Origin: Dactylococcopsis salina PCC 8305
Lineage (GTDB): Bacteria; Cyanobacteriota; Cyanobacteriia; Cyanobacteriales; Rubidibacteraceae
Assembly (NCBI RefSeq): GCF_000317615.1
Contig: NC_019780.1
Coordinates: forward strand, 3,369,840 to 3,433,839
Direction of reading: 5' to 3'
Length of the DNA stretch: 64,000 bases
Position 1 is the stretch's first letter; every line of letters starts with the position of its first letter. The notes beneath the pieces are model-generated. The model did not search any database. It worked only from the letters and a program-made list of their open reading frames with translations, and was not told the origin of the DNA. The position numbers were made by a program, and so were the translations under genes. Shown here in pieces: positions 27,003-41,328 of this stretch.

Positions 27003-27076
27003 AATTACTTAGGTTGAATAATCGGACAAACGCGATCGTCCTCTGGGATTTCTAAAATGGGATTCAGGATCAGTCG

Positions 27077-27330
27077 TAGGTTGGGTGAAATGAAATGCAA
27101 CCCCACAACAATCGATCGATGATAAAAAGTAGGTTCGGTGAAATGAAATGCAACCCCACAACAATCGATCGATGATAAAAAGTAGGTTGGGTGAAATGAA
27201 AGGCAACCCCACACCAATCGATCGATGATAAAAAGTAGGTTGGGTGAAATGAAATGCAACCCCACACCAATCGATCGATGATAAAAAGTAGGTTGGGTGA
27301 AATGAAATGCAACCCAACAACAATCGATCG
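27077..27330. repeat. 53-bp tandem repeat, about five units
   Basis: Units start at 27077, 27130, 27183, 27236 and 27289. Each is a TTGGGT palindrome (TAGGTTGGGTGAAATGAAA, then GCAACCCCAC) plus CAATCGATCGATGATAAAAAG. The array lies 90 bases before pheT and produces long spurious minus-strand ORFs. Confidence 0.9.
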
Positions 27331-27420
27331 AAACTTTTGTTCCAAACATTCACAGATTGATCCGTTGGTGTCACAATAGAAAAGCTAAGAGTTAAAGTTG
27401 CACGAACACCAAACAAGTCC

Positions 27421-29859
27421 ATGCGAGTCTCTCTAAATTGGTTACAGGAATTTGTTGATCTCGATTTAACACCAGAAGCCCTTGGTGAAATTTTAACCAT
27501 TGCGGGGTTTGAAGTGGAAGAAATCGAACACCGTCGCACGTTTGCGGAAGGCGTAGTGGTGGGAAAGGTTTTAGAACGAAATAAACATCCCAATGCAGAT
27601 AAACTGAGTGTGTGTCGCGTTGATATTGGTGAAGATGAACCGAAAACCATTGTCTGTGGTGCGAGTAATGTTCGCGCTGAAATTTATGTTCCAGTGGCGA
27701 CCATGGGAAGTTATCTCCCTGTGAAAGACTTAAAAATTAAACGCAACAAGTTACGGGGAGTCGCATCAGAGGGAATGATTTGTTCTCTAGCAGAGTTAGG
27801 GTTGGAAAAAGAGTCTGATGGGATTCATGTTTTTTCCCAAGAGAATCTCACGGTGGGAGAACCCGTTTATCCGATTTTGGGATTAGATGATGTGGTGTTA
27901 GACTTGACCACAACGGCGAATCGTGCGGATGCGTTGAGTATGGTCGGTGTCGCGCGAGAAGTGGCGGCGCTGACGGGGAAACCTCTCAGGCTTCCTGAAT
28001 CGTCACAGCAGGAGATTGCTGGCGGTGAGGGGTCTTTACAAGTACAGGTGACAGCAACGGAGGCTTGTCGCGCCTATTTCGGGACGGAAATTAGAAACTT
28101 GGAAATTGCCCCCTCTCCCCAATGGTTACAGCGACGGTTACAAGCAGCAGGGGTGCGTCCGATTAATAATGTGGTTGATGTTACAAATTATGTGCTGTTG
28201 GAGTGGGGTCAACCGTTACACGCCTTCGATCGCGATCGATTACAATCGGTAGCAAAAGGGGAAGGGTTAACTATTGGGGTTCGTCTCGCTACCGCAACGG
28301 AAACTTTAACCACTCTCGACGGACAATCTCGTGAACTTCATCCCGATAATTTACTGATTACGGCTAATGATGTTCCTATTGCCTTAGCTGGCGTAATGGG
28401 TGGTGAAGAAACGGAAGTTTATGACCAAACTGAGAATATAATTTTGGAAGCGGCGCTGTTTGAACCCGTAGCAGTAAGACGATCGGCAAGGGCGCAAAGC
28501 CTACGCACAGAGGCTTCTACTCGCTATGAACGCAGCGTGAATCAAGCGGAGTTAGAACGGGCAAATCAACGCGCGATCGCACTTTTAAGGGAGTTGGCAG
28601 CAGGAACGCCCACTCAACAAGCAATTGCTGATACTCGTCCCACGCCAGAACAATGGTATCGTTCTTTGACCCTACGCCTCGATCGAGTCCAGCAAGTGTT
28701 AGGAAATGTTAACAACCGAGATGATGGCAAACTCACCGCCGAAGATGTGGAACGCACTCTCACCACATTAGGTTGTGAATTAGAGAGACAATCTGAGGTT
28801 TCCCTGACTTGGACAGTCACAGTTCCCCCTTACCGCTATCGAGACTTAGAACGAGAAATCGATCTCATCGAAGAAGTCGCCCGTCTCTACGGCTATGATT
28901 ATTTTCAAGATACGCTTCCTGAAAGTACCCAACCGGGTTATCTCTCCTCACGACAACAAAACAAAAACCGCATCCGAGAAGCAATGCGTGCGGTGGGTTT
29001 AACTGAGGTGTTACATTATTCTCTGGTCAAACCCGAAGGAGAAGCGGTAACCTTAGCAAATCCTCTCTTCAAAGAATATTCAGCACTGCGAACCGAGTTA
29101 ATCACAGGATTAATTAACGCCTTTTCCTATAATTTTGCGCGAGGAAATGGCGCATTAAACGCCTTTGAAATCGGACGAAGATTCTGGCAGACTGAAACAG
29201 GTGTCGGAGAAGCAGACACCCTCGCGGGAATTATGGGTGGTGAAATGTTCTCTCAAGGACGTTGGACAACTTCCGGTCAAGGACAACCGATGAGTTGGTT
29301 TCAAGGGAAAGGGTTGTTAGAAGCCGCGTTCACTCGTTTGGGTTTAACAGTGACTTATGAAGCCACTCAGGAAGAGAAACGGTTACATCCTGGACGCACT
29401 GCAATTTTGTTTTTAGAGGGAGAAAGATTAGGCATTTTCGGACAATTACATCCCCAGTTTTCCCAAGAAAATGATCTACCAGAAACGGTTTATGTGTTTA
29501 GTTTTGATTTAGAACAACTATTAAACGCTTTAGCTGCGAAAAATGTCTCCCAGTCTCGTTTTACGCCCTTTTCCACTTATCCTGCTGTTGCTAGAGATAT
29601 GGCATTATATGCGCCAGTTGACCTTCCCGTTGCTTCCCTGATTCAGGTGATGAAAAAAGCAGGAGGAAAACTGTTAGATAATGTGGAATTGTTTGATGAA
29701 TATCAGGGGGAAAATGTGCCAGACGGACAACGGAGTTTAGCCTTTAGTTTAAATTATCAGGCACTCGATCGAACCTTAACCGATGAAGAAGTCGAACCCG
29801 CTTTAGAGAAAGTTCGCAAAGCATTAACCAAAGAATTTGATGTTACTTTAAGGAGTTAA
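27421..29859 (+). CDS. pheT: Phenylalanyl-tRNA synthetase beta subunit
   Basis: PheT is the tRNA-recognition and editing subunit of the alpha2-beta2 PheRS. The 812-residue product has the bacterial layout: N-terminal [19 protein letters not shown], a tRNA-binding EMAP-like domain (~40-150, [15 protein letters not shown]), the B3/B4 editing domain (~210-400), B5, a class II-like core ([19 protein letters not shown]) and a C-terminal anticodon-binding domain ([16 protein letters not shown]). pheS is not nearby. A YCII gene follows after four bases. Confidence 0.96.
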
Positions 29860-30143: not shown

Positions 30144-30213
30144 TAGGTTGGGTGGAGAGAAACGAAACCCAACAACAATCAGTGACCAGTGACCAGTGAC
30201 CAGTGACCAGTGA
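30144..30213. repeat. TTGGGT palindrome followed by heptamers
   Basis: GTAGGTTGGGTGGAG and CGAAACCCAAC form the palindrome, then about five heptamers (CAGTGAC) run to 30213, just before the nuclease-ParA gene. Confidence 0.75.
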
Positions 30214-30281
30214 TATAAATATGAAAGACTTTTGCATAAAATTTAACTAAAATGGTTAAAGCCATCAGCATTGAAAGTTAA

Positions 30282-31694
30282 ATGAGTCAAATCAACTGGC
30301 AATAAATTATTGCACAGCTACCTTCTAACGCAATAGAACCAATAATAGAAACTTCATTTGTTATTCCTCTTCTTCAATCACTAGGCTATGGTGATAATAA
30401 CCAAACTCAAGAATTTCCTACTGGTAATGGTAATGATAAGGTTGATTTTGCTGCCCGAAAAGACTCAAACAATTTCATAGAAAATCCCCAAAATCCTGAT
30501 CTTTTGGTAGAAGTGAAAGGACGAAGAACATCTAGTGGAAATATAATTAATTTAGCCAGTGGAACATCCCAATATAGAGAAACTGTAAACCAATTAAAAA
30601 GATATCTTCTTGCACCTAACTGCAAAAGTGTAAAATGGGGCATTATTACCAATGGGAATCATCTCCAGTTATTTCGTAAACATGGGAAAGTGATTCATCC
30701 TGCAACCCCTAATCTAGAAATTAGTTCTCAAAACATCACTAATATTATTCAGCGAGTTAAAACGATTATTGAAACTCCTCAACGGGGTTTAACTGTGACC
30801 TTCTATAATAATCAAGGTGGGGTGGGGAAAACAACAACGCTGGTTAATTTAGCTGGTTTATTATCGCAAGGCTTAACAAGGAAGAAGAAAGTTTTAGTTA
30901 TAGATTTCGATTCTCAGGGAGATTTAAGCCGTCTTCTCGGAATCAATCAAGCTCAAAATTTATCAATGCCTTTACTACAAAATCAACAGCCTGAATTGAC
31001 GCTTTATCAATGCTTAACTAATACCAATGCTCATTTAAAGCAGGCAGTTGAACGCATCCCAATTTACATTCCAAAACAAAAACAAACTATTGTTACGGAT
31101 TATTTATGGGCAGTTGCTGTAAAAGAGGATGAAAAAGAGAATCTTCAAAATATAAATATATCTCAAATACAAGGAAAAGCATCGAGATTAAAAAAACTCA
31201 TTCAATCTGTTAAAAATGACTATGATTATATTTTTATAGATGCTCCTCCCAGTTCTGATTTTTTTAGTAAAAGTGCCTTGTTTGCTGCTGATGTCGTCTT
31301 GATTCCAACTGAGCATATTCATATTAACTCGTTGTCTAATGCCAAATACCTAATCAAGAATACCCTCCCCAGAATTCAAGAAGAAAAGCAAGAAGGAACA
31401 CCGATTCCCCTTCCCATCTTCTTTAATGATCATAATCCAACATTACCATCTTCAAGAAATTCTCATAGGATTATTCAAGGTTTACTTAGACAAGAAAATA
31501 ATGCCTATGATCCTGATTTAGTTCCTTATTTTTATCCGAGAAGCACGAAGATTCTTGATCCCTATGTTTTCAGCATTAAAAGCCACTTACACATTCCCAC
31601 CGCTGCGGTAGAAAAAAGGATCGCATCTCTCAAGTATAGAGCAATTGCTAAGCTATATTTAAGTATGGCAAAGGAGTATTTTTTAGATGGGTGA
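30282..31694 (+). pseudogene. HsdR_N-like nuclease domain fused to ParA-type ATPase, in-frame stop at codon 8
   Basis: From ATG 30282 the frame reads MSQINWQ, TAA (30303-30305), then IIAQLPSNAIEPIIE and on without break to 31694 (470 codons). The N-terminal ~170 residues look like a restriction HsdR_N/PD-(D/E)XK domain: KVDFAARKD (Asp55), then NPDLLVEVKGR with Glu77 and Lys79. A ParA/MinD-type ATPase follows: Walker A QGGVGKTTT (178-186), Walker B VLVIDFDSQGDLSRLLG and DYIFIDAPPSSDF. The ParA signature Lys is Gln178. After the stop the next usual start is TTG 30504, past Asp55 and before Glu77. So the gene is either broken by one nonsense change or starts at a rare codon. It overlaps its partner by eight bases. 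Confidence 0.7.
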
Positions 31695-32478
31695 TTTTGA
31701 TAATATTGGTGAGTTAATGCACTTGCCCTTAGAAAGTATTAATCTAGTTAGTAACTATTCTGTTCCTCAGTTTATGATTAAGATAGGAGCAGAAGCAATT
31801 CTGAATTCTCATGGCAGAAACTGGGTCCCAGTGATTGTTCAAGAAACTTCGATGTATGAATATCAAGTAGTTTCTAATCACTTGGTTTATTTAGCGTCTA
31901 AACAAGCTGAGTTAGAACGAGTTTGGTGTTTTGTTATTAGTCCAGAGGCTGAAAATATCACTCAAGCTAAACTTTTGACTCGGGAAACTTTCCCCCAAGT
32001 TAATCTTTGTACGGCTGATCAAGAAATGATTTTTAGTGTTTTGAACTATTTAAGTAGTCTAGAAGGAAGTCCGTTAAAAGGAGTAAATGTTGGTAAGGCG
32101 GCTGCTAAAATTGCTAATGCTAATCGGGCAATTTGGAAAAGTTTTAATCCCATCACTAAATTAAAATGTGGCATAGTGAGTGATCAAAAAATTAAGTCTC
32201 TTCAGAAAATTTTTTATCTTCAACCACCGCCACCGCCTCCCTTACCTGAACCAGTTTCTTTAAAAACAGCGACTAGAGACGAAGTTTATGAACGTTTGAT
32301 CTATCTTAAAGAATATCAAATTGGTGGCTTTGAAAAGGTAAATATTGAGCAAGCAACTACTTCAATTTTAAGTGCGGATAAAACAAACTGGCGCAACTTA
32401 AAGCCAATTACTAAGTTGCGTTGTGGTATTGGTGAGGCTAAAGTTAACACCTTAAAACAAGTTTTTAGAGTCGAATAA
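31687..32478 (+). CDS. ParB-like protein with duplicated C-terminal domain, partner of the ParA-type ATPase
   Basis: A 263-residue protein. The N-terminal ~110 residues (LPLESINLVSNYSVPQ, EAILNSHGRNWVPVIVQE, YEYQVVSNHLVYLA) resemble a ParB/sulfiredoxin-fold domain. Two copies of a ~60-residue module follow, joined by a proline linker (PPPPPPLPEP): residues ~120-180 and ~200-262. They share the pattern VN...A..I..A....W....PITKL.CGI...K...L...F. I know no name for the module. The gene overlaps the ATPase gene by eight bases, so the two act together, perhaps in DNA partition or defence. Confidence 0.7.
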   Translation: MGDFDNIGELMHLPLESINLVSNYSVPQFMIKIGAEAILNSHGRNWVPVIVQETSMYEYQVVSNHLVYLASKQAELERVWCFVISPEAENITQAKLLTRETFPQVNLCTADQEMIFSVLNYLSSLEGSPLKGVNVGKAAAKIANANRAIWKSFNPITKLKCGIVSDQKIKSLQKIFYLQPPPPPPLPEPVSLKTATRDEVYERLIYLKEYQIGGFEKVNIEQATTSILSADKTNWRNLKPITKLRCGIGEAKVNTLKQVFRVE

Positions 32479-32619: not shown

Positions 32620-35600
32620 TTACCATGGACTACCAACCAAACTAAAGGCAGCCCAGTAGAAGGGATGACTCAAGTCTTCAGCACGAGTGGAAATCTCTGT
32701 TGGTAAGGTTAATTCTCCGCGTGGGGTGATAATTTCTGAACCTTCTAGTCGCACTTCACCGTTGATCAGGTTAATTTGTGCTTGTTGTATCGCTTCTGCT
32801 TTGATGGGGGCGGTGTTTAATTGGCGATAAAACTCACTCATTAATCCTAATGTTCCCGTGTCTCCGACATACCAGAGACTCCCTAAGGCTGATTTTACGC
32901 CAGCTTGTACCGTCAATCCTGCGAACCCTAATTCCACTTGTTCGTTACCAACAGCAGTTCGACAAGCACTCAACACTAATAATTCTACAGGGGGATCGTT
33001 GAGATTTAATTGACGAATGTCTTCTAAACTGAGTTTTCGATCGTAAAGCTGGATATAAATATCTTCTAGATTACCCGGTCGAAAATCCGCATGAGTCGCT
33101 AAATGAATGATTCCTTCTGGATTCCGTCTTCTTTCTTGACGGAAGTTTTCGAGAGTGAACTCGTCATTAATTTGAAACTCACCGCGCCAAATCTCATTGG
33201 CAATTGTCGGTAGTTCTAACTCTACCGCAGGTAAAGGACCCAATGCTGTGGGATCATTGAAATTAGAAGCCCCGATGGCAAAGACTTCTAAGTCTTGGAG
33301 GTTTTTATAGCGAGTATCTGTCAGACTCAAACTAGGAGAGAAACCAGTGCTATAGTTCTCTACAAGGAATTGTTCTCCATCATGTAAGGCGGCGACGGGT
33401 AATAAGCGTAACCCTGAAGGCATAATAAAAACAAGGTTCTCGATTTCTTGTGCTTCTAAGGTTGCTTCTAAGGGTTCAATAATCCAATCATAAAGCTGTT
33501 GGGCTGGTGCGAGGTAGGGTTTAGCCTGACGGGCAAAAGGGCTGGGAGGACTGGAAATTGAGCCATATAAAGCCTCTGCGGTTTGTTCTACTTGTTCACG
33601 GGTGGCGTTTTCGACAGTGATGCGGAAGGGTTCGCCGCTTTCGGTGACTAATAAAATTTCTAGTTGATCATCGGGTTGACGGGGAACTGATAAGGTAACG
33701 TCTGCTTTCCGTTGGGAAAGGTTGAAATATTGTTCGTAGTCTTGGGTGAAACGGGCTTCTTGACGTTGGAAATCTGTGATTCCTGTGAGGGTTTCTGGGG
33801 TGAAGTTGAGGTAGATTAATGCAGGTTTTACCCCAGAGGCGCGATCGATTTCTGCTAGTATTTCTTGTGCGTCGTCAAGAGTCGTCACCTGTACTGATTG
33901 CTGAGTGTTAGTCGTTATCGTGGTGGTGGGTTCTTCGTTTAAGACTTCTGGGTTCGGTTGGTCTTCTTCCACAGAAATGATACTGATATTCCCCTCTCGT
34001 TCTGTAAACAAAAATGAACCATCAGCAATTTCAAATTCACCACTGGTAATTTCTCCTGCTGTACCATTGACTTCTGCATCTCCCACGATAAAAGGAATTT
34101 CTCCACGCCCGCCATGACGGATGGTAATTTCTCCTCCTCCTTCTCCGCCGAGACTAGAAACACTCGCTGGAATCTCTCCTTGATCTAAAAACGTCTCTGT
34201 TGCCCGGAAAAAGCGATCGGTGCTGACATCAATCACTCCTCCTTGTCCCTCTTCACCCGCTTGAGCGTTGAGAGTGCTAACTTCAATATCTTGATCAGAT
34301 GCGAGGGTCATATCACCGCCATCTCCTACGCGACCACTGCTGTTGATTGCACCTGCACTAATTTCACCGGCAGCATTTTCGACATTTTCTGCAATGACAT
34401 CACCGATTTGAATTTCACCCCCTATTGCACCGGAAGCATTGACATTTCCTCCAGAAACTAAATTCGCAAGAACTTCTAAGTTATTCCTTTCACCCTCTGG
34501 GGTTCGACCATCTGGAAAGTTCACGGAACCTGCGGCACTGCTTTCTACAACTTGGCTGGTTGAGACATTGGAAGAAGCGCCATCTGTTGCGATCACTGTC
34601 GCTTCAATCTCATTGTTGAGTGCAGGATCAATACCTGAGAGGGTGGTGTTATATTGCAAGCCAAACGGAGTCGATTCGAGATCACTACCATTAATTGAGG
34701 TGACTACGTTACCATTAACTGCCAATTCCAATCGGGCAATGTCGGCAGCTTCGACGGGAGAGGCTGTGAGGGAAGCAGTCAACTCATCTGGGTTCAAAAC
34801 TCGTTGAGCCGAATTGTTGGTTAAGCCATCATCAAGGGCATCGAGATCGGGTAAAGAAGCCCCAGTTCCCAGCCCGATCGCGCGAATGTCAGCATTGATA
34901 CCGTTGGCATCGCGCAGTGTGTCTGCTTCATCAAAGAAATTGACGTCATTGGGAATTCCATCAGAGACAAAGAATACTTGATTATTCCCATCGGAAGCAT
35001 CACTAAAAAAGTTAATCGCTTCTTGGAGAGCCGCATCAAAGTTAGTCCCACCGCCGGAGGAAAGTGATCGCAAGCTATCCACCACATCAGGGCGGTTATT
35101 ATTGTCCAGATCAGCTTCCACTGTGGTCTCAATGGCTGTTGTTGCCCCATCACTGAAAGGAATGAGAGTGACGGTGGAGTTACTAAAGCCATTATCAATG
35201 ATGGATTGATGAAGGCTCTCAAAAGACGCGATCGCGCCATCGATAAGCGTGTTCGCCTCGCCATCATTGTTCAGGTCGCCGACAGCAATTTCTCCTTGAA
35301 ACAAGTCGGACATACTACCAGAAACATCAATCACGTAGGCAAAATTAAACGTATTCTCGCTGATTTCTCCTCGCGTCACAAAGCCACTGGCAGCGACAGA
35401 ACTCTCTGTAGAGAATTCGGGCAACGTTAAAGTAAGACCTAACTCCTGTCCTGTGCTGAGAATGGTAGTGTTTGCAGTGGTACTCTCTTCAAAAATCTCA
35501 AAACCTTCTGCTTCCAAATTGCCGGGTAAAATGCCTTGAGCGGCATTAAAAATGGCAGTACCAACTTTAACTGCTCCCTGTTCAGTATCAAGGATAAGAT

Positions 35601-38600
35601 TTCCTCCTTGTCCACTGAAACTAGAACTAATCAGATAATTGGTAGTAATGTCCCCCTCAGCACTGAGATTAATGTTTCCCGCATTCTCATCAATAGATAA
35701 ACTGAGATAACCACCAATTCCTTCTTCCGAGAAGTAATCAACAATTGTCATTAAATCAGAGTCAATATCAATATCTAACTCTGTCAATAACTCAGCACTG
35801 ACATTTTCTAGAAATCGACCGACTGACCCATCAATTGAACCATTTTCACTATTGAGAGTAATGTTACCCCCCTCACCGCGAAAACTTCCCGTTGTGATGT
35901 TACTGGTGGTAATCCTCCCATTGGCGTTAATCGTCACATCACCGCCTTTGGCTTCTTCTGAGAAAGTAATAATTCCTAGACGAATAGAAACGCCATCCAA
36001 GAGAGAGGCTAATTCCGCATCCACATCAGCTTCTAATAACAGTTCTTCCGTTACGCCATCGACAATGGCATCAAAAGCCGTATTCACAGAACCCTCATTG
36101 CTAGTGAGAGTAACATCGCCCCCTGCTTCTCCTAAAGTTCCAGTGATGATCATTCCCGTGTTAATGTTATCCTGTGCTGTGATTTCCACATCACCGCCAA
36201 CTCCTTCATTAGAACCAGAAAAGAGGAGTCCAATATCCACAGAGGATGCAGAAGCGGCTTGGGCTAAAGCGCGGCTTAACCCTAATTCTTCTAATAAAAT
36301 GGGGTCTAAGTCTCGTACACCTACAGTGGTGTCAATGCTTCCTGTTTCACTGTTGAGGGTAATCTTTCCCCCTGTGCCATCACCTAGAACACCGCTACCC
36401 ATCACACCTGTGCGAATGTTTCCTCGTGCATTGATGGTGATATTTCCGCCGTTTCCTTCTCCAGAACCACTGACAATTAATCCTACTTCAGTTTCATCAG
36501 TGCGGGTGTCGCCTTCTGCAACAACTGTATAACTAGCGTTAACATCTCCTCCTGTGCTAGTGAGACTAATATCTCCACCATTGCCATTTTCAGAAGTGCT
36601 TTCAATGAAACCCGCATTGATGTTACCGCCAGCTTCTAAGATAATTTCTCCACCATTCCCATCCTCAGAAGAAGCATTAATAGTTAATTGATCTAATTCA
36701 ATGTCGTCAAAGTTTTCTGCAGTCTGTTCATCACCACGACTCGCATCAATAAAACCGCCTGCTGTGAGGGTAACATTTCCTGCATTTCTGTTGTCAGAAA
36801 AAGTCTCGATTTGGTCAGTCACAGTAATGTTTTCTTGGGCTTCAATATCAACATTGCCACCAGAACCATTCCCAAACGACTCAATCTCTTGAATTTCTAC
36901 AGAACCCCCTGCGCTATCCAATTCAACATTTCCAGCATTCTCAGAAAAAGTTTGCACGCTACCGATTTGAATATTTTCTTCGGCGTTAACAGTAACATCA
37001 CCACCAGCGCCGCTTTCAAAGCCAGCAGGGGAAAAAGTATCAATTCTTTCTACATCAACTGAACCCCCTGCGCTATCCAAGGTGACATTTCCCGCATCTT
37101 GATTATCAGAAGAAGCATTGAGATTGGTAACTTGAATATTTCCTTGAGCGTTAACCAGAATATTTCCACCATTGCCACTTTCAAAACCAAAAGAATCAGC
37201 GTCAATTCTTTCTACATCAACTGAACCCCCTGCGCTATCCAAGGTGACATTTCCCGCATCTTGATTATCAGAAGAAGCATTGAGATTGGTAACTTGAATA
37301 TTTCCTTGAGCGTTAACAGTAACATCTCCACCAGAACCACCGTTGCCATCACTGCTTCCAGTATCAATGGCGCCAATGGTAACATTAGCGTTCTCGCTGT
37401 TAATCGTAATTGTTCCCGCATCTCCTGAACCGCCAGAATAGGTGCTTAGGAAGTCTGTCTGCACTTGATTTAATGCAGAAATTTCAATGTTTCCTGTATT
37501 ACCAGTGCTACCTGTTACGCCACCGAATTCTCCTGTAGAGATTTGGTTGATATTAACACTCCCTTGAGGACTCTCTACGGTAATATTCCCACTTTGACCA
37601 TTACTCTCTTCAAGATCAATAGAGGATTCTAATAGAGTTGCTGTAATATTGCCTTGCTGACTGTCTAATTGAATACTTCCAGCGTTTCCTGTTGCATTTT
37701 GAGAACGAGAAGCAGCAGTTCCCACAATCATATTGTCTCTTGCGTCTAAAGATATATTTCCACCATCTCCAGTTTCTCCGTTAGCAATAGAGGTAAGATT
37801 ACTAACATCAATTGAACCGCCTGCATCCAGTGTAATATTCCCAGCGTCACCGTCAGAGTTATTCGTAGATATATTTTGAACGGTTATAGAACCTGTATTA
37901 GCAGTGAAATCAACTGTTGCGCCAAGAGTTTCAAGGTTTGTGTTAATTTCTAAGTTCCGTTCCGCCGTAAAAGTAATACTTTCTCCAGAGGTTTGGTTTT
38001 CAAAGTTTAAATTCGCTTCAGCGTTGGCGATGATGTCTCGACTAGCCTGTAAAATAATATTCCCATCAAGGCTGGTTAACGCGATATCGGAGATAAAAAA
38101 GTCTGTTTCAGGATCACCATCAGTAAAGAGAATTTCTCCATCACTAATCTCTGAATCATTATCTGACGGAGGACTACCTTCGATAATAATGTCTCGCGGA
38201 TCAAATAAAACCGTCCCCGTTTCTCCCTGTGAAGCAGACACATCAATCGTTCCATTAAAAGCAAGGGCTTCTTTTCCAGACACTTCGACAAAGCCGCCAT
38301 TTCCTTCCTCTTTCCCTCCTTTAGCGCTAATGTCTCCAGAAAAGACGGTTTGTCCTTCTGACCAGACGATTACTTGTCCCCCATCACCAGCAAGTAGTGC
38401 GTCTGCGCTCAATTCTGCTCCATCACTAACAAAAGTTCGGGCCGCACTCGGTAAACTTTCTCCCCCTTGATAGTCACCACCGACAAAAATTTCTCCGCCG
38501 CCATTGATACCATCAGCGCTGAGTTGTGCTTCATATAGTCCAATTTTTTCCCCTAAAACGTAGATATTGCCTCCCGTTTCACCGCTAACATCTAACTCTC

Positions 38601-39462
38601 CAGCGATGACACTACTGCCTTCTGTGGTGGGAATTGAAGTCTCTTGTAAGCTAACGGTTGCGGTGGCTTCATCCACAACTAATCCCTCTGGGCTATAATC
38701 TCCTGTGAGAAGGGCGGGTAAATCATACACGGATAAGTTCCATTCTCCTGCGGTGGTGTCTGGAGGAACAATTTCTAAACTTAAAATCTGTCCAGGTTGA
38801 GAGAGACGGATGAGATTTTTTCCTGGAACTGCGGTGATGGTAATGTTACCTTGTTTGGCGGTGAGTGTTCCTGTATTGGCGACACTTCCCGCAAAGAAAC
38901 TGAGATTATTTTCTGCGCTAACTTCCAAGTCTCCAGCGTTGATAATGGCGCTGGGGGTTTCGGTGTTAAAAATAAATTGGTTGGGAGTTCCCACTAACTC
39001 GCTATAGTTGTTTTCCCCAATGGCGTTAAACCAGCCCTGTTTAAATCCAATTCCTGTGGCGGTTGTGGCGGTAAAGTCACTAGGAACATTGAGACGGGCG
39101 TTTTCCCCGAAAATTACGCCGCTAGGGTTCATTAAGTAAAGGTTGGGGTTGCCACCACTAACTTCAATTAAACCCCGAATTACGGAGGGATTCCCACCAG
39201 TGACACGAGACAGGATATTTTGTAGTTGGGGGTTGGCGAGAAAGTTGGCAATTTGTTCTGGGGATAAACCAAATTCTTGGAAGCTATGAAAGAGGTTTTC
39301 ACCGTTTTGGGAGAGGCTTCCGCCATCAATGGTGATTCGTTTGCCGTCACGGGTGATAATGGTGCCAGTGCCGTCGTCAGCAGGAACGATGGTTTGTGCT
39401 TTGACGGATGCGGTGCTACAGACGGAGAACAGGGCGAGGAATAGGGCGAGTTTTTTGAACAT
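32620..39462 (-). CDS. Two-partner secretion exoprotein with VWA and CHAT domains
   Basis: A 2280-residue secreted protein. Order: signal peptide (1-22, ends SVKAQ); TPS/hemagglutinin N-domain (~24-170, with NPNLYLMNPSGVIFGENARL) recognised by the TpsB pore; ~1100 residues of glycine-rich beta-helix repeats (GGNITL, GSIDVS patterns); a von Willebrand A domain (~1370-1580) with complete MIDAS (DVSGS, GGGTNF, VSDG) and two calcium-loop-like stretches (DLNNDGEANTLID, DLDNNNRPDVVD); and a C-terminal CHAT caspase-like domain (~1980-2280) with His in HLATHAD and Cys in LSACRTAVG. It is probably a surface protein with protease activity. tpsB lies 156 bases upstream. Confidence 0.9.
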   Translation of the reverse strand: MFKKLALFLALFSVCSTASVKAQTIVPADDGTGTIITRDGKRITIDGGSLSQNGENLFHSFQEFGLSPEQIANFLANPQLQNILSRVTGGNPSVIRGLIEVSGGNPNLYLMNPSGVIFGENARLNVPSDFTATTATGIGFKQGWFNAIGENNYSELVGTPNQFIFNTETPSAIINAGDLEVSAENNLSFFAGSVANTGTLTAKQGNITITAVPGKNLIRLSQPGQILSLEIVPPDTTAGEWNLSVYDLPALLTGDYSPEGLVVDEATATVSLQETSIPTTEGSSVIAGELDVSGETGGNIYVLGEKIGLYEAQLSADGINGGGEIFVGGDYQGGESLPSAARTFVSDGAELSADALLAGDGGQVIVWSEGQTVFSGDISAKGGKEEGNGGFVEVSGKEALAFNGTIDVSASQGETGTVLFDPRDIIIEGSPPSDNDSEISDGEILFTDGDPETDFFISDIALTSLDGNIILQASRDIIANAEANLNFENQTSGESITFTAERNLEINTNLETLGATVDFTANTGSITVQNISTNNSDGDAGNITLDAGGSIDVSNLTSIANGETGDGGNISLDARDNMIVGTAASRSQNATGNAGSIQLDSQQGNITATLLESSIDLEESNGQSGNITVESPQGSVNINQISTGEFGGVTGSTGNTGNIEISALNQVQTDFLSTYSGGSGDAGTITINSENANVTIGAIDTGSSDGNGGSGGDVTVNAQGNIQVTNLNASSDNQDAGNVTLDSAGGSVDVERIDADSFGFESGNGGNILVNAQGNIQVTNLNASSDNQDAGNVTLDSAGGSVDVERIDTFSPAGFESGAGGDVTVNAEENIQIGSVQTFSENAGNVELDSAGGSVEIQEIESFGNGSGGNVDIEAQENITVTDQIETFSDNRNAGNVTLTAGGFIDASRGDEQTAENFDDIELDQLTINASSEDGNGGEIILEAGGNINAGFIESTSENGNGGDISLTSTGGDVNASYTVVAEGDTRTDETEVGLIVSGSGEGNGGNITINARGNIRTGVMGSGVLGDGTGGKITLNSETGSIDTTVGVRDLDPILLEELGLSRALAQAASASSVDIGLLFSGSNEGVGGDVEITAQDNINTGMIITGTLGEAGGDVTLTSNEGSVNTAFDAIVDGVTEELLLEADVDAELASLLDGVSIRLGIITFSEEAKGGDVTINANGRITTSNITTGSFRGEGGNITLNSENGSIDGSVGRFLENVSAELLTELDIDIDSDLMTIVDYFSEEGIGGYLSLSIDENAGNINLSAEGDITTNYLISSSFSGQGGNLILDTEQGAVKVGTAIFNAAQGILPGNLEAEGFEIFEESTTANTTILSTGQELGLTLTLPEFSTESSVAASGFVTRGEISENTFNFAYVIDVSGSMSDLFQGEIAVGDLNNDGEANTLIDGAIASFESLHQSIIDNGFSNSTVTLIPFSDGATTAIETTVEADLDNNNRPDVVDSLRSLSSGGGTNFDAALQEAINFFSDASDGNNQVFFVSDGIPNDVNFFDEADTLRDANGINADIRAIGLGTGASLPDLDALDDGLTNNSAQRVLNPDELTASLTASPVEAADIARLELAVNGNVVTSINGSDLESTPFGLQYNTTLSGIDPALNNEIEATVIATDGASSNVSTSQVVESSAAGSVNFPDGRTPEGERNNLEVLANLVSGGNVNASGAIGGEIQIGDVIAENVENAAGEISAGAINSSGRVGDGGDMTLASDQDIEVSTLNAQAGEEGQGGVIDVSTDRFFRATETFLDQGEIPASVSSLGGEGGGEITIRHGGRGEIPFIVGDAEVNGTAGEITSGEFEIADGSFLFTEREGNISIISVEEDQPNPEVLNEEPTTTITTNTQQSVQVTTLDDAQEILAEIDRASGVKPALIYLNFTPETLTGITDFQRQEARFTQDYEQYFNLSQRKADVTLSVPRQPDDQLEILLVTESGEPFRITVENATREQVEQTAEALYGSISSPPSPFARQAKPYLAPAQQLYDWIIEPLEATLEAQEIENLVFIMPSGLRLLPVAALHDGEQFLVENYSTGFSPSLSLTDTRYKNLQDLEVFAIGASNFNDPTALGPLPAVELELPTIANEIWRGEFQINDEFTLENFRQERRRNPEGIIHLATHADFRPGNLEDIYIQLYDRKLSLEDIRQLNLNDPPVELLVLSACRTAVGNEQVELGFAGLTVQAGVKSALGSLWYVGDTGTLGLMSEFYRQLNTAPIKAEAIQQAQINLINGEVRLEGSEIITPRGELTLPTEISTRAEDLSHPFYWAAFSLVGSPW

Positions 39463-39618: not shown

Positions 39619-41328
39619 CTACGGGCTGTAAGTCAAACTAAAATGAAGTCCGTCATCTTGGATGTTGTCTCCTGTGTTTTCTAAGTCAACTAGGGGGATG
39701 CCATAGTCGAGACGGAGGTTAAGGTTAGAGATGGGATTCCATAACAATCCCAGTCCTAAACTTGCAATTACAGTTTGTTCTTGAGAAATTGAGTTCGGGT
39801 TATCGTCTTTGTTGATGACAGCGCCCGCTTCTACGAAGGGAGCAATTTTAAAGGTTGCTTCTCCCGCGTCATTGCTACTGAGAGTGATTTGATCTTCTAT
39901 GGAGAGTCGAATCCCTTGATCTGCGGTTAAGATGTTTTGACGATAACCTCTAATTGATTGTCCGCCACCGATGACAAATTGTTGTGAGGGTAAAAGTGGG
40001 TCTGAGCTTAATTGTATGTCGGCTTGGATGATTAAGATGTTATTTTCGCTTAGAATTTGCACTCGTTGCGCTTGTCCTAACCAACTGAGAAATTGACCGT
40101 CTGGGGTGTCTCCGTCGTTTTCTGTCGCATCAAAAAGGTTGGTGCCGATGGTAAAGAGCGATCGAAGCCCCCAAGCCCCGCTCTCACTACGTTTCACGTA
40201 ATCTTGTCCCAGTTTTATGACACTGGTACGACTCACGCCATCTTCATTGGGGCCAAAACTAAAGGGGGTTGGTGTTCCCGAAACAAAGGTTTGTCCGTTT
40301 TGATAGGTAAAACCAACGGAAAGAGCAAATTCTTCTCTGGGAGTGCGCGTCAGGGGTTGACGATAACTGATTTCAACTAAATCGAAATCCCCTTCGATAC
40401 CTAAGTCTTCAAATTCGTCTTCGATGACTTCATTACTTCCGAATGCGGTTCGCAGTTGAATCGTTCCATTTTTCCCATTAATGGGGAGATTATAGTTGAA
40501 ATCTAGGTCTTCTGCGCCACCTTGAATGGTGCGAGAATAACTGGCTTGAAGGGTATCGCCATTACCCGTTAGGTTACGATTACCAATGGTAACGGTGGCT
40601 TCTTCTGATCCAACACTAGGAGGAGAATAGTTATCCAAAGAGACTTTTCCTAACCAGGGGTTCGCTTCTTGTACTCTCACCACTAAAATGCTTTCTTGGA
40701 TGTTTTCTCCTGGTCTTAAACTCGCTTCTATGGTGTCTAGGAGGGGATTAATCCGAAGCAGACGCAGTTGATCTTCGAGTTGATTGGTGTTGAGAATTGG
40801 TTCGTTTGCTAACCCAAGGCGCGATCGAATATACTCTGGATTTAAGCGTTCTGTTCCTGTAATTTCAATCCTTGCTAATTCTCCTTCTAAAACCCGAATT
40901 TCCACATTACCTGTCGTTAACGAATCTTCGACTAACACCGCGCGAGAAGTTAAATAACCTTGCTCTAAATATAGTTGTGTAATCGCTCTCACCGCATCAG
41001 AAATTTCACTCAAGCTCACAGTTTCTTCTCTTAAAGGATTAAGAATTGCCTCGAATGTTTCTTCAGAAAAGATACTGCTACCAATAACATTAATGGTTTC
41101 AATGTTATAAGTATTGTTCGGGGTATCTTTAGGACGAGAAGGAGAACTAGCTGGAGAGGGAGAGTTTTCTCGCGGAAGGGGTTGTGGCGGATCACTCTGT
41201 TGTAAGAAACGGTCTTGGTTCGGATTACTATTTTGTGCGAGTGTGGGACTCATTATCCCTGTAATAATTAAGATCAGGAACGGAGTAATCTGAAGCAATG
41301 ACCATGACTTTTGGGAGACAATTTTCAT
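39619..41328 (-). CDS. TpsB outer-membrane transporter (ShlB/FhaC/HecB family)
   Basis: A 569-residue outer-membrane pore that exports the downstream TPS exoprotein. It has a signal peptide (LLQITPFLILIITGIMSPTLAQ), a proline-rich linker (~35-75), two POTRA domains (INVIGSSIFSEETFEAIL, LRINPLLDTIEASLRPGE) and a 16-strand-type barrel ending in LHFSLTYSP with a terminal aromatic/hydrophobic pattern. The FhaC-type motif region SIRGYRQNILTADQGI is present. Order tpsB then tpsA in the same direction is the usual arrangement. Confidence 0.92.
   Translation of the reverse strand: MKIVSQKSWSLLQITPFLILIITGIMSPTLAQNSNPNQDRFLQQSDPPQPLPRENSPSPASSPSRPKDTPNNTYNIETINVIGSSIFSEETFEAILNPLREETVSLSEISDAVRAITQLYLEQGYLTSRAVLVEDSLTTGNVEIRVLEGELARIEITGTERLNPEYIRSRLGLANEPILNTNQLEDQLRLLRINPLLDTIEASLRPGENIQESILVVRVQEANPWLGKVSLDNYSPPSVGSEEATVTIGNRNLTGNGDTLQASYSRTIQGGAEDLDFNYNLPINGKNGTIQLRTAFGSNEVIEDEFEDLGIEGDFDLVEISYRQPLTRTPREEFALSVGFTYQNGQTFVSGTPTPFSFGPNEDGVSRTSVIKLGQDYVKRSESGAWGLRSLFTIGTNLFDATENDGDTPDGQFLSWLGQAQRVQILSENNILIIQADIQLSSDPLLPSQQFVIGGGQSIRGYRQNILTADQGIRLSIEDQITLSSNDAGEATFKIAPFVEAGAVINKDDNPNSISQEQTVIASLGLGLLWNPISNLNLRLDYGIPLVDLENTGDNIQDDGLHFSLTYSP

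Follow-up and report, generated by a model that had tools for sequence, protein, structure and literature searches.

The window analysed here, a stretch of 64,000 nucleotides from the genome of Dactylococcopsis salina PCC 8305 (3,781,008 bases, one contig), contains two overlapping plus-strand genes, designated A and B, whose features are listed in Table 1. Gene A codes for an N-terminal region resembling the nuclease domain of the restriction subunit HsdR, which is followed by an ATPase domain of the ParA/MinD type, and gene B codes for a partner protein with a ParB-like N-terminal fold. An overlap of eight bases between the two genes had been part of the original prediction for this locus and is confirmed by their coordinates (start of B at 31687, end of A at 31694). 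As written, gene A is interrupted, because codon 8 of the frame opened by the ATG at 30282 is a TAA (30303-30305), the translation reading MSQINWQ*IIAQLPSNAIEPIIETSF..., and intact relatives start about eight residues ahead of window position 9 and are stop-free. In this frame, no ATG, GTG or TTG is present between the TAA and the TTG at 30504; the latter opens the sole ORF for gene A with one of these start codons, and this ORF lacks Glu19 and Asp55. The original prediction had located the nuclease residues correctly but had overlooked the stop codon.

Table 1 Features of the A-B locus (positions refer to the window)
Feature	Position	Strand	Basis or remark
Gene A, original start and stop	30282..30305	+	ATG, 7 codons, then in-frame TAA at codon 8
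Gene A, predicted HsdR_N-type PD-(D/E)XK domain	30306..30779	+	Pfam, AlphaFold2 strand order, residue conservation
Gene A, predicted nuclease residues	Glu19 30336; Asp55 30444; Glu77 30510; Lys79 30516	+	followed by Gln104/Tyr108 helix
Gene A, conventionally started ORF	30504..31694	+	TTG start, 396 aa; half of nuclease domain missing
Gene A, ParA/MinD-type ATPase domain	30780..31694	+	AAA_31 E=1.7e-28; fold match to Soj, McdA
Gene A, Walker A	Gln 30813-30815; Walker lysine 30828-30830	+	NNQGGVGKTT; Gln replaces signature lysine
Gene B, partner protein	31687..32478	+	263 aa; 8-base overlap with gene A
Gene B, ParB/Srx-fold N-domain	31711..31992	+	residues 9-102; AlphaFold2, fold search
Gene B, first SAM/helix-hairpin-helix-like module	31993..32226	+	residues 103-180; ComEA-like sequence
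Gene B, proline-rich linker	32227..32262	+	translation
Gene B, second module copy	32263..32475	+	replaced in several relatives by Rho_N/SAP-type tail

Elsewhere in the window, a minus-strand gene (32620-39462) codes for a 2280-aa protein with a putative filamentous-haemagglutinin-like start and a CHAT-protease-like end, and is adjoined by a gene for a putative outer-membrane transporter of the two-partner-secretion type (39619-41328, minus strand). The stretch 27005-27650 consists of repeated intergenic DNA with several overlapping minus-strand ORFs, which are probably spurious.

The N-terminal domain of protein A is assigned to the PD-(D/E)XK group on the basis of Pfam, conserved residues and topology. 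The matches of the window copy to HSDR_N (E=4.6e-4) and HSDR_N_2 (E=2.8e-3) both fall under the Pfam cut-off, and relatives reach 32.6, 29.7 and 27.6 bits with HSDR_N_2, for which the cut-off is 25. The AlphaFold2 model of A, computed from 10 sequences (pTM 0.84; pLDDT mostly 83-94 in the nuclease block), shows the order helix-strand-strand-strand-helix-strand expected for a PD-(D/E)XK core, with the Asp and the Glu-x-Lys on strands 2 and 3. The proposed HsdR_N-like region, including Asp55, Glu77 and Lys79 when the TAA is counted as residue 8, is thus found where it had been placed, and the fold on which the proposal hinged is present in the model. Its residues are also kept in homologues, as had been anticipated (E19 in 44/44, D55 in 43/44, E77 in 44/44 and K79 in 43/44 pairs, and in the distant clades described below). 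A fold search with the full A model gave a match list filled by the ParA domain, and a sequence search of the PDB found no relative of the N-terminal domain. As judged from model and sequence, the domain has a PD-(D/E)XK core with E/D/E-x-K residues, and cleavage of DNA is predicted. One natural copy of A (L259:9638-11017) carries the exchanges Asp55->Gly and Lys79->Thr, the rest being open.

Behind this domain, Pfam detects no SF2 helicase motor; the ParA ATPase lies there instead, in agreement with the proposed fusion. The model of A matches Soj of H. pylori (6iub; Z 25.8, rmsd 2.9 over 254 residues) and McdA of Cyanothece (Z 23.5), and as modelled the domain has the ParA ATPase fold. ParA/MinD proteins possess a deviant Walker A motif with a signature lysine (KGGxGKT). 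The gene A family conforms to this motif and the window copy does not: the signature lysine, present in the other 43 of the 44 pairs, is replaced by Gln178 in the window. The Walker lysine is kept in all 44.

For protein B, the AlphaFold2 model (mean pLDDT 90) has an N-terminal domain which matches ParB of Myxococcus (7bnk; Z 13.2, rmsd 2.1 over 90 residues) and which, according to this model, adopts the ParB N-terminal fold; the B partners of a more distant clade score above the Pfam cut-off for ParB_N. Since relatives of A exceed the HSDR_N_2 cut-off and the ParB match reaches this Z score, the fold assignments of both proteins represent more than chance. No relative of B was found in a sequence search of the PDB. 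The CTP-binding motifs GERR and ENxxR are missing from B, in which SNHLVY and LLTRET stand where the canonical ParB encoded by Nostoc plasmids has GERRYR and IENLQR. In place of a parS-binding helix-turn-helix, residues 103-180 match SAM/helix-hairpin-helix (HhH)-like folds (Z 6.5 to the pseudopilin XcpX, 6utu, and Z 4.2 to PsbU in the fold search), and no shared repeat was found beside the pair. Relatives of B have Pfam matches to HhH or Rho_N/SAP; the SAM/HhH-like module is present twice in window B and its closest relatives, and other relatives end in a Rho_N/SAP-type tail. The duplicated module around a polyproline linker that had been read from the sequence is therefore real, a proline run separating two similar modules. 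The ParB label applies only to the fold of the N-terminal domain, as B is devoid of the motifs for CTP binding and has a different DNA-binding part.

When 386 cyanobacterial genomes were searched with profiles (A called at E<=1e-60, B at E<=1e-5), A was detected in 42 genomes, B in 47 and both in 35, corresponding to an odds ratio of 138 for their co-occurrence. Of the 54 loci fetched (three of which came up in each of two collections), 49 have B immediately downstream of A, mostly with a gap of -8 to +18 bases. The pair is thus conserved among cyanobacteria as had been supposed, the two genes do occur together elsewhere, and we are confident that the two-gene architecture is real. Across 44 pairs, the distances of A and B are correlated (r=0.90), as are those of the N-terminal domain and the ATPase of A (r=0.92), and neither value was reached in 2000 permutations. 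The five loci without B are L260, from the family including Nostoc, and L266-L269, which belong to a single lineage. In the A-only lineage, comprising five genomes, B is undetectable, the nuclease residues are kept and A is under purifying selection (dN/dS 0.11-0.23). In one genus (L256, L257, L273, L276, L277), A has dN/dS values mostly of 0.3-1.1 and mosaic differences, and B has values of about 0.1.

A second, more distant chromosomal clade, composed of an HsdR_N-ParA protein and a ParB_N partner, occurs at high scores in about 47 of the 386 genomes, with one pair in each genome, in many cases close to a further ParA gene, and with the nuclease residues kept; a further clade consists of a few, mostly plasmid-borne pairs. 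Among the matches listed, all full-length ones in the genome scan were cyanobacterial, and no full-length relative from outside the cyanobacteria was among the plasmid and phage matches listed. Two candidates were rejected: a match on a Novosphingobium plasmid with partial N-terminal coverage, whose ATPase has ParB and a replication protein as neighbours, an arrangement known from conventional partition loci, and a viral match to B (L310), which is located within a large phage protein and is not part of a pair.

Most copies found are chromosomal and stand alone among housekeeping genes without a common neighbour. Others are carried by plasmids of Nostoc sp. UHCC 0870, Pseudanabaena and Leptolyngbya and by a 58-kb contig classed as viral, and plasmid, viral and chromosomal copies interleave as sisters in one tree. 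No AAA_31 (ParA-type) ATPase other than A was found on the plasmids ABRG53g and pLBA or on the viral contig; judging from its gene content, which includes a terminase and a Rad52-type gene, pLBA looks like a phage-plasmid. Three Nostoc plasmids harbour the pair alongside canonical ParAB, two of them together with a ParM-type gene, so the pair is not always the partition system. The earlier suggestion of a plasmid relic is partly supported by the homologous pairs on plasmids, but the majority of the copies found are chromosomal. Defence genes, which had been expected as neighbours, are not apparent around the chromosomal copies: in a PADLOC comparison of 129 flanking with 82 control proteins, in which the rates are approximate, no clear defence excess was seen, and the matches were a few of the AAA_21 type and one to restriction-modification. 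With such neighbours, a defence function is unproven. A search for palindromes, shared words and centromere-like repeats beside the pair revealed nothing common to the compared loci. A tandem CAGTGACC-type heptamer repeat is located at 30180-30214, 60-100 bases upstream of A; it was rejected as a parS-like site, since about 320 (overlapping) matches genome-wide mark it as a dispersed repeat.

The window copy of the pair has probably decayed and its nuclease function has probably been lost, judging from the TAA at codon 8, the exchange of the signature lysine for Gln and the long terminal branch in both gene trees (1.06 for A compared with a median of 0.29; the corresponding values for B are 0.76 and 0.30). 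The TAA may, however, be a sequencing error, and since McdA of S. elongatus is an active ATPase although it has no signature lysine (PMC6328274), Gln178 alone is no proof of loss. In genome G387, A is broken and B open, as in the window. The window's genome contains two further, related ParA/ParB-like pairs. In one of these (L286:9774-11297; C1 about 3475773-3477296), a helicase-type AAA_12 region (E=3.7e-40), fused to the ParA ATPase, takes the place of the nuclease domain, and a ParB_N-like partner follows downstream. The other (L286:13083-15152) is a third pair, of the HsdR_N-ParA and ParB-like type, with a frameshift splitting A.

With respect to function, we tentatively favour, as a possibility somewhat short of probable, that the pair is a mobile ParAB-like module of maintenance or competition whose ATPase could also cut DNA. 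This preference follows from the conserved nuclease residues, the folds, the plasmids with A as sole ParA, the patchy spread and neighbours that are not defence-like; in particular, the folds and the sole-ParA plasmids point to maintenance, and competition or defence would be in keeping with the patchy spread and with the rapid change of A seen in one genus. Upon binding of ATP, A would dimerise on DNA, as suggested by ParA biochemistry, and two nuclease domains would thereby be brought together; B, attached to DNA by its HhH/SAP modules, would stimulate or release A, so that nuclease activity would be set by the place and time of A dimerisation. Such a module, resident on plasmids, in phage-like elements or as an insertion in chromosomes, would position its own DNA and could cut DNA, and chromosomal copies such as that of the window would be insertions which are sometimes lost. 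The predominance of chromosomal copies, the lack of a shared centromere-like repeat beside the pair, its presence next to canonical ParAB and the A-only lineage count against this proposal. We further consider it conceivable, but doubtful, that the proteins represent a cyanobacterial family of ParA-switched nucleases, in which nucleotide-driven dimerisation would gate a restriction-type nuclease tuned by a ParB-fold partner devoid of CTP motifs, and by which a replicon would both position itself and destroy competing or foreign DNA.

A role in defence or exclusion, in which A would patrol the nucleoid and cut plasmid or phage DNA that enters the cell and that B marks or recognises, appears unlikely to us: the invariant nuclease residues, the presence of A in no more than 42 of 386 genomes, the rapid change of A next to a constrained B in one genus and the breakage of A beside an open B in the window and in G387 would all agree with it, but the pair lacks a clear excess of defence genes at its side, is itself found on plasmids and on a viral contig, and yields in PADLOC only a 46-residue match to the Walker region of A (E=2.7e-5). 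Broken A genes next to retained B genes, as well as the overlapping two-gene operon, would also be expected of a toxin-antitoxin-like addiction pair with a potentially harmful nuclease A restrained by B; the lineage which maintains A and its nuclease residues under purifying selection without B makes this very improbable. Type Ia ParA proteins carry a helix-turn-helix at the place where A has the PD-(D/E)XK domain, and in an ordinary ParAB-type partition locus this domain might serve only for DNA binding or regulation. Such a function would be in line with the ParA and ParB folds, with A as the sole ParA-type ATPase found on two plasmids and the viral contig, and with the L259 copy, which is open despite the loss of D55 and K79. 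We nevertheless judge it quite unlikely, as the catalytic E/D/E-x-K set is almost completely conserved over 44 pairs and the distant clades, which argues against a merely structural N-terminal domain, and as B is devoid of CTP motifs and most copies are single chromosomal insertions.

NCBIfam, PHROGs and PADLOC (copy of 2023) contain no specific model for the pair. Plasmid homologues of A are annotated as 'AAA family ATPase' or 'ParA family protein', those of B as 'hypothetical protein' or 'Rho termination factor N-terminal domain-containing protein', and in the literature searched no description of an HsdR_N-ParA fusion with a ParB-like partner was found. The combination thus looks undescribed, in keeping with the original prediction of a candidate new system. 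ParA-type ATPases move DNA and protein cargo, and through a ParA that stably bears a nuclease with conserved catalytic residues, whether encoded on a chromosome, a plasmid or a viral contig, the positioning of DNA would be coupled to its cutting. The pair also bears on how cyanobacteria segregate or protect their DNA; most of the sampled cyanobacteria are without a strong ParB match (a strong ParB_N match is present in only 57 of 386 genomes), and in the window's genome no ParB_N match lies above the Pfam cut-off.

Among known systems, ParABS (Soj/Spo0J, P1 ParAB) shares with the pair the ParA ATPase fold, the ParB N-domain fold and the two-gene operon, but here the ParA protein carries a PD-(D/E)XK domain, B is without GERR and ENxxR and has HhH/SAP-like modules, and no parS was found. 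The McdAB system for carboxysome positioning likewise pairs a ParA-type ATPase from cyanobacteria with a dedicated partner protein; McdA, however, has no nuclease domain and McdB no similarity to ParB (PMC6328274). With the N-terminal nuclease of type I restriction HsdR proteins (HSDR_N, HSDR_N_2), A has in common the E...D...E-x-K core, the Q-x3-Y helix motif and a conserved TNG strand, but it possesses the ParA ATPase instead of a helicase motor, and neither HsdM nor HsdS was seen beside the pair in the loci inspected. The C-terminal modules of B share the fold and an NLxTAS...GI signature with HhH or SAM-like modules of the ComEA/PsbU/GspK type, from which they differ in being joined to a ParB N-fold. 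The pair is best placed as a variant of the ParA/ParB-like systems in which the ParA protein bears a nuclease domain.
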